Positions 55,491-60,958 of a stretch of DNA of 64,000 nt are shown one piece after another. The notes under the pieces were generated by a model. It had not been told where the DNA came from and searched no databases. It saw only the letters and a list, made by a program, of their open reading frames with translations. Position 1 is the first letter of the stretch. Every line of letters begins with the position of its first letter. The stretch is from NCBI GenBank assembly GCA_017466445.1, contig JAFTUC010000027.1, positions 45,811 to 109,810 of the forward strand, in the 5' to 3' direction. This DNA is from Clostridia bacterium (lineage in GTDB: Bacteria; Bacillota; Clostridia; Oscillospirales; CAG-272). Both the position numbers and the translations under genes were made by a program.

Positions 55491-57164
55491 TTATTTTTCA
55501 GGGGTGTAGCTGTCCTTGAGGCTGACTATGCGGTTGAAGGTGTTGGGGTATTTTGAATCCTTTACAAAATATCCGGTCCTTACGAACTGGAATCTGTCGC
55601 CTGCCTCTGCACTGTCGAGAGAAAGCTCGATCTTGCAGCCCTCAAGCTTCTTAAGAGACTCGGGGTTTAGGAAATCGTTGTAGGTGGCGTCCTCGGGCAT
55701 GTCGTTGAGATTGGGGATCGTGAAGAGCTTGTCGTAAAGCATGATGTCAACGTTTTTGCAGTGAGATGCGGAAAGCCAGTGGATGGTGCCCTTGACCTTG
55801 CGTCCGTCGATCGGTTTGCCGTTGCCCGATTCAAGATCGGCAGTGCAACGTATCTCGGTGATCTTGCCGTTCTCGTCCTTGATTATCTCGTTGCATTTTA
55901 CGATGTAAGCTCCCATGAGACGAACCTCTCCGTCCGGCTTCATGCGGAAGAATTTCGGGGGAGGATTGTCCGAAAAGTCCTCTGAATCGATATAGATCTC
56001 TCTCGTGAAGGGGATCATACGCTCGCCTGCGTCGGGATTCTGAGGATTGTTTGAAACAGGGAAGTATTCGACCTTGTCCTCGGGATAGTTCGTTATAACT
56101 ACCTTTACGGGATCAAGGATGGCGATACGGCGCTCGGCACTCTCGTTGAGTTCTTCTCTTATGCAGTGCTCGAGAAGCTCGATGTCAACTATACTGTAGG
56201 TCTTTGCGATTCCCGCGCGCTTTACGAAATCGAAGATCGATGCGGGAGTGTAGCCTCTTCTGCGCAGACCGCAGATGGTGGGCATACGGGGATCGTCCCA
56301 TCCGTCAACAAGACCGGTCTCGACGAGCTGACGCAGATAGCGCTTGCTCATTACCGTGTATGTCACGTTGAGACGGGCGAACTCTCTCTGCTTCGGGGCA
56401 GGAGAGAAGATTCCGATGTTGTCTATGACCCACTCGTAAAGGGGTCTGTGGTTCTCAAATTCGAGCGAGCAGAGAGAATAGGTGATACCCTCAAGTGCGT
56501 CCTGGATAGGATGAGCATAGTCGTAGAGAGGATAGATGCACCATTTGTCACCCTGACGGTGGTGGTGCGCTCTTACTATTCTGTAGATCGCGGGATCGCG
56601 CATGTTCATGTTGGGCGATGCCATGTCGATCTTAGCGCGAAGGGTCTTGGAGCCGTCGGGAAATTCACCGTTTTTCATTCGCTCGAACAGATCAAGGTTC
56701 TCCTCGATCGAGCGATTTCTGTAGGGACTTTCCTTGCCGGGCTCGGTAAGTGTTCCGCGATACTCGCGGAGCTCGTCCGCGGAAAGATCGCAAACGTACG
56801 CCTTGCCGTCCTTTATGAGCTTTACAGCGAACTCGTAGCACTTGTCAAAATAGTCCGATCCGTAGAACACGCCTCCGGTCGGCTCGGTTCCGAGCCAACA
56901 GAGATCGTTGTAGATCGAATCGACGTATTCGGTGTCCTCCTTGACCGGGTTCGTGTCATCGTAACGGAGGTTGAAAAGACCTCCGTATTTTTTTGCCGTG
57001 GCATAGTTGATGTATATCGCCTTGGCAGATCCGATGTGAAGATATCCGTTGGGCTCGGGAGGAAAACGGGTGTGTACCGTGTCGTTTATTCCTGCCTCAA
57101 GCTCGGCATCGATGATATCGTGTATAAAATTAGGTCCAATGGAAAAGATCTCGTCCTTGTTCAT
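55491..57164 (-). CDS. glnS: Glutaminyl-tRNA synthetase
   Basis: A 557-residue class I synthetase. The HIGH motif is EPNGYLHIGSAKA (about 36-48), the KMSKS equivalent is TVMSKRYL, and two C-terminal anticodon-binding beta barrels follow. The length matches bacterial GlnRS. Many Bacillota lack GlnRS and amidate Glu-tRNA(Gln) instead, so its presence here is of evolutionary interest. It follows gltX by 32 bases. AGGAGAT precedes the ATG. Confidence 0.96.
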   Translation of the reverse strand: MNKDEIFSIGPNFIHDIIDAELEAGINDTVHTRFPPEPNGYLHIGSAKAIYINYATAKKYGGLFNLRYDDTNPVKEDTEYVDSIYNDLCWLGTEPTGGVFYGSDYFDKCYEFAVKLIKDGKAYVCDLSADELREYRGTLTEPGKESPYRNRSIEENLDLFERMKNGEFPDGSKTLRAKIDMASPNMNMRDPAIYRIVRAHHHRQGDKWCIYPLYDYAHPIQDALEGITYSLCSLEFENHRPLYEWVIDNIGIFSPAPKQREFARLNVTYTVMSKRYLRQLVETGLVDGWDDPRMPTICGLRRRGYTPASIFDFVKRAGIAKTYSIVDIELLEHCIREELNESAERRIAILDPVKVVITNYPEDKVEYFPVSNNPQNPDAGERMIPFTREIYIDSEDFSDNPPPKFFRMKPDGEVRLMGAYIVKCNEIIKDENGKITEIRCTADLESGNGKPIDGRKVKGTIHWLSASHCKNVDIMLYDKLFTIPNLNDMPEDATYNDFLNPESLKKLEGCKIELSLDSAEAGDRFQFVRTGYFVKDSKYPNTFNRIVSLKDSYTPEK

Positions 57165-57196
57165 ATCCTGAAAATCTCCTGATTAGAAATTTTGAT

Positions 57197-58867
57197 TTAA
57201 AGCTTTGATGCTTCGTCTCTTACGCGCGCTACCGTGCGATCGTAGCCGAGTATCTGCATGATCTCAAAGAGGTCGGGGGAATTCTGACGTCCCGTCACCG
57301 CGATCCTGATGAAGTTGCTGACATCTCCGACGTGTCCCTTGAAGCTATCGGGATCGTTCTTGTACGCCTTTACGTCGGGCGAGAAGCCGAGCTTTTCCGA
57401 GATCGCCTTGACGCCGTCAAACCAACCGTTGTTGTCGGTATTCGGGTCGTAGGAATCAGCAAATGCATCGAGAGCGGCTTTTATGTCGGTCTTGTCAAAT
57501 CCTTCGGGATAAGCGTCGACCCTTTCAAATATCTCATCGTAGAAGAAGGACATGTAAGCCTTTGCCTCGTTCCACTTTGCGAGATCCTTTCTCGATTTTT
57601 TGCCGCCGCGTCCGATAGAAAGAATGCGAGTGGCGTATGCGGGATCTCTTTCGAGAAGTGCGGAAAATTCGGGATCGTACGATCTTGCCCATTCGGAGAT
57701 GCCCTCGTAGACTCTCTCGGCAGTCATACGGGAGATGGTAGTCTTCGAAACGTCGGTAAACTTGTCAAGATCAAATAGTGCGCCCGAGGTGTTCATCTTC
57801 TTTATCGAGAAGGGGAAGGACTTCCAGTCCTCGTCGGGGTTTGCGCGTCTCCATTCCTCATAGTTTGAGTTGAGAAGTGTCATAACGTACTCGATGACCG
57901 ATTCGGGCGGATATCCCTCTGCTCTGTAATCGGCAAGAGCCGCACCCTTGTCACGCTTGGAGAGCTTCTTCTTGGAATTGCCCTCGAGCTTCATAAGTTG
58001 AGCGAGATGCATGTATTTCGGCATTCTGAAGCCGAGATATCTGAAAAGCTGAATGTGCTTTGCAAGGCTGGGAAGCCATTCCTCACCTCTGATGACGTGA
58101 GTCGTGCCCATAAGATGATCGTCTACCGCGTGTGCAAAGTGATAGGTAGGGATGCCGTCCGATTTGAGAAGAACGAAATCCTCATCGTTCTCCGGGATCT
58201 GGAGCGAGCCCTTGATAAGGTCGGTAAAGGGTGTCTTTTTCTCGGGATCGCCGTTTGCAAGTATGCGAAGCACGAAGGGATCGCCCGCCTCGAGATGCTC
58301 CTTGACCTCTTCTATGGTGATAGCTCTCTGAGCGGCCTGACGCTCGGCTCTTTGCGCACTTTCGTCACTGTGCCAATCCTTGTTCTGGATCTCTGCCTTT
58401 TTGTCGGTGACCTTGAGCGCCTCAAGCTCCTCTTCTGATGAGAAGCAGGGATAAGCCTTGCCCTCGGAAACGAGCTGCTTTGCGAAAACGTGATAGATGT
58501 CGGCGCGGTGGCTCTGACGGTAGGGACCGTAAACGCCGTTGTCGCCGCCGGCGATCGCACCCTCGTCGAATTCTATTCTGTAGTATGCGAGCGTATTTAT
58601 AAGGTCTTCCTCGGCACCCTCGACCTCACGCTTCGAGTCGGTGTCTTCTACTCTTAAGTAGAATATGCCCTCGCTTTGATGAGCGAGTCTCTCGTTTACA
58701 AGTGCGGGGAAGAGAGTTCCGAAATGTATAAAGCCTGTGGGCGAAGGGGCAAGACGGGTTACCTTGGCACCCTCGGGAAGCTCTCTTTTGGGGAAGGATG
58801 CTTCAATGTCCTCGGGCGTTTTTGTTACGTCGGGGAAAAGAAGCTCTGCAAGACGGCTGAAATCCAT
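57197..58867 (-). CDS. gltX: Glutamyl-tRNA synthetase
   Basis: A 556-residue class I synthetase. The HIGH-like motif is APSPTGFIHFGT (about 40-51) and the KMSKS equivalent is KKLSKRDKG. It is longer than the common 470-490 residue GluRS, with the extra length mainly in the C-terminal half. It is the first gene of the gltX-glnS operon, with AAAGGA before the ATG. Confidence 0.95.
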   Translation of the reverse strand: MDFSRLAELLFPDVTKTPEDIEASFPKRELPEGAKVTRLAPSPTGFIHFGTLFPALVNERLAHQSEGIFYLRVEDTDSKREVEGAEEDLINTLAYYRIEFDEGAIAGGDNGVYGPYRQSHRADIYHVFAKQLVSEGKAYPCFSSEEELEALKVTDKKAEIQNKDWHSDESAQRAERQAAQRAITIEEVKEHLEAGDPFVLRILANGDPEKKTPFTDLIKGSLQIPENDEDFVLLKSDGIPTYHFAHAVDDHLMGTTHVIRGEEWLPSLAKHIQLFRYLGFRMPKYMHLAQLMKLEGNSKKKLSKRDKGAALADYRAEGYPPESVIEYVMTLLNSNYEEWRRANPDEDWKSFPFSIKKMNTSGALFDLDKFTDVSKTTISRMTAERVYEGISEWARSYDPEFSALLERDPAYATRILSIGRGGKKSRKDLAKWNEAKAYMSFFYDEIFERVDAYPEGFDKTDIKAALDAFADSYDPNTDNNGWFDGVKAISEKLGFSPDVKAYKNDPDSFKGHVGDVSNFIRIAVTGRQNSPDLFEIMQILGYDRTVARVRDEASKL

Positions 58868-58938: not shown

Positions 58939-59020
58939 TATTTTTAAGGAAAAATATTTGATGAAAACCTTTTCGGATCAAACGGGCGATGAAAGTATCG
59001 CGCGTAAAGCATACGGCGTA

Positions 59021-59060
59021 AAATAATCCGCGTATCGAAATAAGATACGCGGATTATTTT
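59021..59060. terminator. 16-bp perfect hairpin insulating gltX from recombinase locus
   Basis: AAATAATCCGCGTATC pairs fully with GATACGCGGATTATTT across a 7-base loop, with short A and T tracts outside. It is a probable bidirectional terminator placed upstream of the recombinase gene. Confidence 0.75.
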
Positions 59061-59133
59061 GTTCGTTGAACGGTTATCTTAACAGATAGTGCAAAAAATA
59101 ATAGTAAAATAAAAGAAAAACGGAGGAATTGAT

Positions 59134-59976
59134 ATGAAAAAAAGAATTATTACAGACAGTAAAGTAAAAGCATTCGAAAAAAATCTCGTAGAAAACGAAA
59201 GATCAAAGGCAACGGTTGAAAAGTACAGAAGGGATCTTCGCAACTTTATCGAATATGCCGCGGGGCGCACGCTCGATAAGCAACTGATCCTGGACTATAA
59301 GCTCGAGCTTGGGCAGAGCTATGCCGTACGCAGTGCTAATTCAATGCTTGCGGCACTTAATTCATTTCTGCGCTTTTTGGGATGGCTTGATCTGTGCGTA
59401 AGGCAGTTCAGAATACAGAGGGAGACCTATTGTTCGGAGGAAAAGGAACTGACCAAAGACGAATACAGATCACTCGTAAGAACCGCCGAGCAAAATAAAA
59501 ACGAGCGCCTGTCTCTTATAATTCAAACGATCTGTGCGACGGGTATCCGCGTCAGCGAGCTGCAAAGCATCACAGTGGAGGCAATCAGACGAGGGGAGGC
59601 GGTGGTCTCCTGTAAGGGAAAAACGCGAAAAATATTTATTATCAAAGCCCTTCAAAGTAAGCTTTTGCGTTACGTCGAGAAAAACGGGATCGTATCGGGC
59701 GTTGTTTTTGTGACAAAAGGCGGTAGAGCGCTGAATCGTAGTAACATTTGGAAGCAAATGAAGGATTTGTGTAAGGAAGCGGGTGTGTCTCACAAAAAAG
59801 TGTTTCCGCATAATCTCAGACACCTGTTTGCCCGAAGCTTTTACGCAGTCGAGAAGGATATCGCAAAGCTTGCGGACATTCTCGGACATTCTAATATAAG
59901 TACCACGAGAATTTATATTGCCACGAGCGGTGCAGAGCATCAGCGGTGCATGGAAAGCATGCGACTTGTCGTGTGA
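59134..59976 (+). CDS. Tyrosine recombinase (XerC/D-like), probable inverter of adjacent promoter
   Basis: A 280-residue tyrosine recombinase. Residues 10-90 form the core-binding SAM-like domain; the catalytic domain has R139 (ATGIRVSEL), K163 (SCKGKTRK), H226-x-x-R229 (FPHNLRHLF), H252 (LGHSN) and nucleophile Y261 (RIYI), so the full active site is present. The size is that of Xer or inverter enzymes rather than phage integrases with arm-binding domains. Just downstream lie two inverted Xer-like sites (60009-60035 and 60250-60276), the likely substrate. CGGAGG precedes the ATG. Confidence 0.92.
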   Translation: MKKRIITDSKVKAFEKNLVENERSKATVEKYRRDLRNFIEYAAGRTLDKQLILDYKLELGQSYAVRSANSMLAALNSFLRFLGWLDLCVRQFRIQRETYCSEEKELTKDEYRSLVRTAEQNKNERLSLIIQTICATGIRVSELQSITVEAIRRGEAVVSCKGKTRKIFIIKALQSKLLRYVEKNGIVSGVVFVTKGGRALNRSNIWKQMKDLCKEAGVSHKKVFPHNLRHLFARSFYAVEKDIAKLADILGHSNISTTRIYIATSGAEHQRCMESMRLVV

Positions 59977-60005
59977 AAAAATAAAACCGCTACACGAAAT
60001 AGCGG
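59976..60005 (-). terminator. Minus-strand terminator just outside the invertible segment
   Basis: Read on the minus strand, CCGCTA-TTTCGTG-TAGCGG is followed by TTTTATTTTTT, a standard terminator. On the plus strand there is no T-run after the stem. It would stop transcripts coming leftward out of the invertible promoter before they enter the recombinase gene antisense. Confidence 0.85.
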
Positions 60006-60008
60006 CTG

Positions 60009-60035
60009 ATATCACATAATGTGAATTATGTAGTA
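60009..60035 (+). repeat. Left inverted repeat (recombination site)
   Basis: A 27-base arm matching the reverse complement of 60250-60276 at 26 of 27 positions. The core is CATAA-TGTGAA-TTATG, with symmetrical outer bases (TACATAA / TTATGTA in the right copy). This is the architecture of Xer/dif-type sites: two recombinase arms around a 6-base asymmetric centre. Confidence 0.9.
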
Positions 60036-60068
60036 GTTACTGCATCTCTGCAGAACTATGTACGCTAC

Positions 60069-60097
60069 AGTATAGCACAACTTTTTGAAAATTGCAA
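60069..60097 (-). promoter_or_regulatory. Promoter inside invertible segment
   Basis: Minus strand: TTGCAA (60092-60097), 17-base spacer, TATACT (60069-60074), with an extended -10 TGC. On the plus strand the same palindromic TTGCAA has only a poor partner (TTTAAA 60115-60120), so the strong direction is leftward. Confidence 0.82.
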
Positions 60098-60137
60098 TAC
60101 ATATTTGAGCGATTTTTAAAAAAATTTAAAATTTTAG

Positions 60138-60191
60138 GCGCAAAAACAGAACCGGAAAAGAAAAATTTTTTTGCCGGTCGCTTTTTTGCGC
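60138..60191. terminator. Nested hairpin inside invertible segment
   Basis: GCGCAAAAA (60138-60146) pairs with TTTTTGCGC (60183-60191), enclosing ACCGG/CCGGT (60151-60155 with 60174-60178) and an A/T stem. It should block read-through from the recombinase gene in the present orientation, and would lie upstream of the promoter after inversion. Confidence 0.65.
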
Positions 60192-60249
60192 TTGTTTTTA
60201 ACACTTTGGTTAGTTTTTTCAGGTGCGATTATCTCGTTTGCGATCTCGA

Positions 60250-60276
60250 TACTACATAATTCACATTATGTAATAT
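60250..60276 (-). repeat. Right inverted repeat (recombination site)
   Basis: Inverted copy of 60009-60035, 26/27 identical. The core on the plus strand is CATAA-TTCACA-TTATG, so the asymmetric centre is opposite in orientation, as needed for inversion rather than excision. Confidence 0.9.
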
Positions 60277-60287
60277 ATTTTGCTGTG

Positions 60288-60306
60288 GCAAACGCTTGGC
60301 GTTTGC
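60288..60306. promoter_or_regulatory. 19-base palindrome, putative TetR operator
   Basis: GCAAACGC-TTG-GCGTTTGC, perfect 8-bp arms, between the right inverted repeat and the tetR-like gene. Its place is right for autoregulation, as it would sit in the leader of the transcript made in the ON state. A weak fixed promoter (TTGCAA 60303-60308, 17 bases, TAGTAA 60326-60331) overlaps it. Confidence 0.6.
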
Positions 60307-60361
60307 AATGTTTTGCCGAAAAATGTAGTAAACGCTTACAGTAAGGAAGGAGAAATAAGTA

Positions 60362-60958
60362 ATGAAACAGGATGAAATCCGTCGAACTCTGATTGACGGC
60401 ACGATCCATGTCATTGCCAGAGATGGGCTCGATAAAGCTACGACCAAGCAGATCGGGCTCGCGACTACCACGAATGAGGTATATATATACCGCTGCTTTG
60501 TAGATAAGGAAGATATGCTCGCAAGAACGTTTGACTCGCTCGATGAGGAGCTTGCAAACAAAGTAATGCAGTACCTTCCGATAATGTATAAAAAGGAAAT
60601 GGTATATGAGATGCGATGCCGTTTCTTCTTTTTCGAGGTGTGGAAATTCCTTCTCGGAAACAGAGATAAATGCCTTGCGTACGTTCGTTACTATTATTCG
60701 CCCTATTTCTTCAAATGCTCTGCCGACAGTCATAAAAATCGATTTGCACCGACCGTCGATAAATTCAGGGATGCCTTTAAAGAGGAGGCGGACGTGTGGA
60801 TGATACTTAACCACATATTAAACGTGATGCTTGACTTTGCCGTGAAGGTGCATAACGGTCAGATGTCGGATAGCGATGATTATTCGGAGCATATATTCCG
60901 CGTGATATACCGCTCGATCGAGCAATATTTCAGAACACCGAAGGAGATAGTTTCTTAA
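60362..60958 (+). CDS. TetR family transcriptional regulator
   Basis: A 198-residue TetR-type protein. The N-terminal helix-turn-helix (DEIRRTLIDGTIHVIARDGLDKATTKQIGLATTTNEVYIYRCFVDKEDML, in overview residues 3-52) is normal and the ligand/dimer domain is poorly conserved. It is the first gene after the invertible promoter and is 2 bases from the signal peptidase gene, so it belongs to the phase-variable operon. It may feed back on it through the 60288-60306 palindrome. AAGGAGAA precedes the ATG. Confidence 0.88.
   Translation: MKQDEIRRTLIDGTIHVIARDGLDKATTKQIGLATTTNEVYIYRCFVDKEDMLARTFDSLDEELANKVMQYLPIMYKKEMVYEMRCRFFFFEVWKFLLGNRDKCLAYVRYYYSPYFFKCSADSHKNRFAPTVDKFRDAFKEEADVWMILNHILNVMLDFAVKVHNGQMSDSDDYSEHIFRVIYRSIEQYFRTPKEIVS

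Follow-up and report, generated by a model that had tools for sequence, protein, structure and literature searches.

A probable self-contained phase-variation switch ahead of a SipW/TasA-type fibre operon in a Clostridia bacterium

The window, i.e. the whole 64-kb stretch of Clostridia DNA analysed here, carries a tyrosine recombinase gene, a pair of inverted repeats that enclose a short segment with a promoter and, to the right of the repeats, an operon in the order tetR-sip-sip-tasA (Table 1). The parts of a phase-variation switch that the first-pass annotation had recognised, namely the sites, the promoter, the recombinase and the order of the operon, are all present. The recombinase gene lies to the left of the repeats as described, at a distance of 32 bases from its end to the first arm and not the 33 given originally. 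Further left of the switch, at 55491-58867 on the minus strand, two class I tRNA synthetases of the E/Q kind are encoded side by side.

Table 1 Features of the switch locus, with positions counted along the window
Feature	Position	Strand	Remarks
Tyrosine recombinase, 280 aa, proposed invertase	59134..59976	+	PF00589 and PF02899 over cut-off
Putative leftward intrinsic terminator, between recombinase and left site	59985..60007	-	fold -12.3 kcal/mol, z -5.4
Left arm	60009..60035	+	holds recombination site 60014-60031, core TGTGAA 60020-60025
Proposed invertible segment	60036..60249	.	bounded by arms; equivalent segment inverted between relatives
Predicted extended -10 promoter, facing left (OFF), 37 bp from left site	60069..60097	-	TTGCAA-17-TATACT, TG before second hexamer
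Hairpin within segment, possible two-way terminator	60138..60191	.	inverted pair and folding
Right arm	60250..60276	+	holds recombination site 60254-60271, core TTCACA 60260-60265
Conserved palindrome in tetR leader, possible TetR operator or leader hairpin	60288..60306	.	also terminator-like in scan
TetR-like regulator, 198 aa	60362..60958	+	TetR_N PF00440 23.6 bits, just under cut-off 24
SipW-type signal peptidase, 243 aa	60961..61692	+	TIGR02228 68.9 bits, cut-off 51.85
SipW-type signal peptidase, 176 aa	61731..62261	+	TIGR02228 93.4 bits
SipW-dependent TasA/BsaA-like predicted secreted protein, 231 aa	62342..63037	+	TIGR04088 over cut-off; TIGR04090 below
Second TasA-like gene, cut by contig end	63120..63998	+	PF12389 (camelysin/M73) 21.8 bits, below cut-off 22.5

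The two 27-base arms are inverted with 26/27 identity (96% complementary) around 214 nt, just as first reported, and, of 19 inverted pairs listed between 57000 and 64000, theirs is the longest. The CATAA-6 bp-TTATG motif noticed in each arm extends to a perfect ACATAA-N6-TTATGT at both sites, and the centres, which had been called asymmetric, are indeed so and are exact reverse complements of each other (TGTGAA and TTCACA). Within the window ACATAA-N6-TTATGT with no more than one mismatch occurs at these two sites only, whereas two such sites were found in none of 100 shuffles of the window. Likewise the assembly, which is 2.09 Mb long and 86.6% complete, has the 20-base site nowhere else, even with up to three mismatches allowed. 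The hairpin inside the segment folds better than 200 of 200 shuffled sequences on the plus strand and better than all but three on the minus strand, and Rfam gave no match in the window at gathering scores.

The recombinase retains the complete R-K-H-R-H-Y set that had been ascribed to it (R139, K, H226, R229, H252 and Y261), and across 150 full-length relatives the first four catalytic residues are invariant, as are the last two but for one alignment gap. The label 'Xer-like' is fair for the shape of the sites, which presumably resembles that of dif, but does not extend to the enzyme: its best NCBIfam matches are Xer models, all of them below cut-off (XerC 147 of 220 bits, XerD 122 of 329.6, XerS 115 of 335 and XerA 59 of 267).

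A promoter of the extended -10 type is present in the segment as proposed but its supposed strength is not, since it matches the consensus in an ordinary 9/12 letters and four matches of this quality occur in 59000-60400 against 3.1 expected, so that taken alone it is not beyond chance. Its support comes instead from the enrichment of promoters in the segments of relatives. On a simple purpose-made score that calls orientation from the best promoter per segment, the window reaches exactly 9.4 leftward and 8.0 rightward, and a score of at least 9.4 is attained by 125 of 150 real segments compared with 2 of 150 shuffled ones. By the best promoter 44 segments are ON (pointing right) and 93 OFF (pointing left), with 13 that gave no clear call. 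In the window it points away from tetR-sip-sip-tasA, which agrees with the earlier reading of the sequenced orientation as OFF. This state becomes understandable in view of the leftward terminator, which would halt the transcript before it runs antisense through the recombinase gene; a terminator of this kind lies between recombinase and left site in 64 of the 87 loci with room for one, a count made without a shuffle control.

The operon is assigned to the SipW/TasA (BsaA) type because a SipW-type peptidase adjoins a SipW-dependent protein, with TIGR02228 and TIGR04088 over cut-off, and its product is a putative extracellular fibre. SipW is not abundant, with 77 matches in 21 genomes. The idea that every SipW locus carries a switch was abandoned, as L239 and L240, other SipW loci fetched from the same genome, show no such pair.

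Of 395 genomes of the family, 109 encode a relative of the recombinase at E <= 1e-40, as do 63 of 391 genomes of the class. From these 171 loci were assembled, comprising 82 from the family (including the window and its closest relative, L014), 29 from the class and 60 further copies, mostly from multi-copy genomes. The repeat pair is conserved in relatives that keep the recombinase, so that the first-pass reading survives the check on conservation that it had proposed: an inverted pair with identical cores and up to two mismatches per site lies 3' of the gene in 150 of the 171 loci, and in 148 of the 157 loci that have 400 bp or more of downstream sequence, while 12 of the 21 loci lacking a pair lie within 400 bp of a contig end. 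The left site lies a median of 26.5 bp past the stop codon and the inner gap has a median of 242 bp (118-515; 150 loci). Among loci of the first set, sites with no more than one mismatch number 158 downstream of the recombinase gene and two upstream. Plasmid records under the names Monoglobus pectinilyticus and Subdoligranulum variabile (two records) likewise have the pair 3' of the gene, whereas Pusillibacter faecalis and one unverified phage-labelled contig contain the gene but yielded no pair. Viral contigs yielded no relative of the recombinase.

The arms are nearly fixed and the cores vary freely. Both sites have perfect arms in 116 of the 150 pairs, yet these comprise 90 distinct 6-base cores, none of them palindromic. 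When the two best sites were picked regardless of core, the same core was recovered in 72 of 73 first-set loci (69 inverted, 3 direct, the latter being loci with extra sites), compared with 49 of 2628 pairs of different loci. Such matching within loci is predicted if strand exchange involves a homology test in the core. Arms of the form ACATTA/TAATGT were scored in ten pairs, two of which are imperfect (L157 and L189); that they mark a single recombinase clade was considered and rejected, since the loci concerned do not group in a quick midpoint-rooted tree. One genome (G093) contains six copies of the cassette with ACATTA/TAATGT arms (L160-L165), four of which share the core TTGATA, one being ON and three OFF, and cross-recombination between these four looks possible given their common core. 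The suggestion that copies in one genome keep orthogonal cores was likewise discarded, as a core is shared by 9 of 82 pairs within genomes, compared with 157 of 11175 pairs overall.

The cassette precedes many other genes across Clostridia, a good share of which encode surface proteins. In 68 of 70 loci with genes the first downstream gene is oriented rightward. Counted as matches to the window's own proteins, SipW-like genes follow in 24 of these loci, TasA-like genes in 23 and either in 31, and TetR in ten, all with SipW, although in L070 the TetR match is weak and lies elsewhere than at the operon head. Other first genes encode helicase-associated proteins (6), Listeria-Bacteroides repeats (4), cohesin (3) and LRR proteins (3), and this mixture implies that the cassette is not restricted to fibres or surface proteins. 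The six helicase-associated (HA, PF03457) genes all head operons (L085, L086, L092, L095, L096 and L106).

The locus is very probably a self-contained phase-variation switch that flips a promoter ahead of a SipW/TasA-type fibre operon, a reading drawn from the DNA and its relatives. It is proposed that the recombinase binds the symmetric ACATAA/TTATGT arms of both inverted sites and exchanges strands within the 6-base core, where a match would be required, so that the segment between the sites is turned around. In the OFF state the promoter would fire left, through the left site and into the terminator that shields the recombinase gene, and after inversion it would fire right into tetR-sip-sip-tasA and turn the fibre operon on.

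The closest named locus, L014, comes from a 'Clostridia bacterium' MAG of water-buffalo caecum and keeps the whole order of recombinase (72% identity), inverted sites, tetR (76%), sip, sip and a tasA-like gene. Its core is TGGGTA in both inverted copies and differs from that of the window; the two copies in a locus thus agree, whereas the sequence of the core changes from one locus to another. L014 also has a third site with the same core 62 bp past the second, and a terminator-like hairpin lies between the two (L014 5488-5833); different site pairs could flip the promoter with or without this terminator, or delete it. The association of tetR with the switch is not universal among TetR relatives (L014-L016 and L011): no recombinase, sip or candidate pair was seen in L016 (TetR 65%), and the contig of L015 (TetR 69%) begins 338 bp before tetR so that the region upstream is cut off. 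The window's TetR has no match at E 0.001 in three other genomes of the genus, one of which encodes a 50% identical recombinase with its own site pair and other cargo (L123).

The leader of tetR (60277-60361) is conserved in four loci and two mutually exclusive hairpins can form in it. Its palindrome is kept in L014, L015 and L016, in the last through changes on both sides, and a TTGCAW-17-TAGTAA element can be discerned by eye. These features, together with the retention of the leader in L016 where the switch is missing, would fit an arrangement in which inversion does occur but mainly sets how much TetR is made, sip and tasA being chiefly under a TetR-controlled promoter in the leader and therefore one step removed from inversion. 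This is considered unlikely, because only 2 bases separate tetR from sip and the two most likely share one transcript, TAGTAA makes a poor -10 box, and elsewhere the switch directly precedes sip, tasA or unrelated genes in the absence of tetR. Direct control of the fibre operon by the flipped promoter is the preferred reading.

The same genome appears to contain a second switch of different make. At L011 (contig C25, 10261-11731) the other copy of TetR (67%) stands at the head of a separate set of sip and tasA-like genes and is preceded by 21-bp inverted repeats around a 1.4-kb segment, in which lie the gene of a different integrase (PF00589, PF14659) and a promoter that resembles that of the window and likewise faces away from tetR. 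Among 25 homologue loci of this integrase an inverted pair around the gene is listed in 17 and clear in 15. Within a single genome, operons of this kind would accordingly be served by two different recombinases.

Both orientations of the segment are present among related loci, with four clusters of related segments containing the two. L085 and L086 share recombinases of 92% identity and a collinear right flank (97% over 700 bp), but their segments are 50% identical as read and 83% when one is inverted. L052 and L056, which like the window precede tetR and sip, behave in the same way (recombinase 82%, right flank 88%, segment 60% as read and 81% inverted). These pairs indicate that the exact segment between the sites inverts, at least on an evolutionary timescale, and that TetR-Sip loci are included. 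The window, L014 and the paralogous L011 are OFF only, with no ON form among the three, as would be expected if the sites and recombinase persisted as a relic and the window's locus were locked OFF. Such a relic is highly improbable, however, given an open recombinase frame with its catalytic residues complete, perfect arms, matched cores and a site spacing within 1 bp of the mean phase of the family, in which OFF is in any case the commoner state (93 of 137 called segments); the window's segment may well still flip at present. That the arms are instead dif-like sites of a Xer system or an integrative element and form an inverted pair by coincidence is hardly credible, for despite their presumed likeness to dif and the Xer models that head the NCBIfam matches, the enzyme scores far below the Xer cut-offs, 150 of 171 loci have pairs that are inverted, matched in core and provided with a promoter, and a single genome can hold several copies. 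As a separate matter, contig breaks were tried as a sign of mixed orientation and dropped as too weak: contigs end within 500 bp of the recombinase on the 3' side in 8 of 82 loci and on the 5' side in 3, and within 1400 bp in 10 and 7 respectively, a count biased against the effect by its omission of six matches whose contig ends just 3' of the gene.

In the family the site-to-site distance is phased on the helical repeat, with a coherence of 0.51 at 10.50 bp that none of 1000 sets reached. The distance from the -10 box to the site that it faces clusters at 26, 37 and 47 bp, with a coherence of 0.65 at 10.5 bp and a best period of 11.0 (n=109, one per segment cluster, these being the usable ones of 116 clusters at E < 1e-10), and 0 of 5000 jittered sets attain this value. 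Taking one locus per core leaves the coherence at 0.65 with a best period of 10.5 (n=71), and thinning at E < 1e-3, which places 119 of 150 segments in one cluster, gives R 0.59 at 10.5 bp with n=24. The intended control, how far the left site lies from the stop codon, itself shows weak phasing (0.28, 3/1000) and is to that extent not quite clean. Relative to the family mean phases the window is off by 0.1 bp (promoter to site) and 0.8 bp (site to site).

Judging from DNA mechanics, phasing between sites would be selected for if synapsed sites are joined by a short loop, and in the window two sites 240 bp apart on one helical face may allow a small loop to close. To account for the phasing of the promoter something more has to be assumed, for instance that recombinase and polymerase touch, and of all the results this is the one least well explained. 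Three or four sites with the same core occur in 21 loci, where neighbours are spaced by 30-34 bp in 14 of 24 cases. The commonest hexamer between the -10 box and the site is TATGTA, which is close to the TTATGT arm and is present in 46 of 128 loci compared with 3.5 in shuffles, while its reverse complement is at background (4 against 3.2). It begins 2-5 bp past the -10 box in 27 of the 46, and phasing persists in the loci that lack it (0.65, n=82). A tentative and rather doubtful extension is a phased nucleoprotein machine shared across Clostridia, in which recombinase would occupy the sites themselves, additional sites of the same core about 30-34 bp off and the TATGTA half-site by the transcription start, and would touch RNA polymerase on the same face of the DNA, coupling promoter activity to flipping. 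If so, the recombinase would regulate the promoter that it moves, or transcription would gate synapsis.

The switch behaves in these comparisons as a portable cassette. Its fixed arms and matched, freely varying cores amount to a natural experiment on core homology in tyrosine recombination, and the phasing of about 10.5 bp from site to site and from promoter to site makes a looped recombinase complex, perhaps including polymerase, testable. The pattern also allows surface genes under switch control to be listed directly from assemblies.

Promoter invertons are known, including Clostridial ones beside a tyrosine recombinase (PMC11892184, PMC5903667). Inverton group 139/invertase group 35 of gut Clostridia, 32 of whose 33 members are from Clostridia, adjoins a tyrosine recombinase as in the window, a likeness judged from description only, and the available account mentions no SipW/TasA cargo, core rule or phasing such as those found in the window's family (PMC11892184). 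Examples of the group in Clostridium sp. D5 and Intestinimonas have repeats of 26 and 14 bases and a spacing similar to that in the window, and their orientations shift in culture (PMC11892184). The RecV switches of C. difficile also combine a tyrosine recombinase, short inverted repeats and segments that contain promoters, but as presented there one recombinase serves several distant segments with mostly unrelated repeats, whereas in the window the gene adjoins its own pair with fixed arms (PMC5903667). Among the papers listed in keyword searches of the open literature there was no inverton on a SipW/TasA locus, no fixed-arm variable-core rule for an ACATAA-N6-TTATGT site and no promoter inverton with distances phased on the helix. 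What this switch adds to those already described is its cargo and its phasing.

The fimS switch of E. coli is a segment of about 300 bp that is handled by two recombinases with the help of host DNA-bending proteins. In this switch too, a tyrosine recombinase inverts a segment with a promoter in front of a surface-fibre operon, that of type 1 fimbriae (PMC9993118), but the fibre is different and the sites are unrelated. The XerS/difSL system of streptococci is described as using one dimer-resolution site and not an inverted pair around a promoter (PMC2731167). The sipW-bsaA operon of Clostridium perfringens is likewise a SipW-dependent filament operon and is expressed bimodally, which in the account at hand is attributed to a two-component system and PilA2 and not to inversion (PMC7395162). 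The switch in the window would tie an operon of the SipW/TasA type to a bistability that is genetic and goes beyond the purely regulatory.
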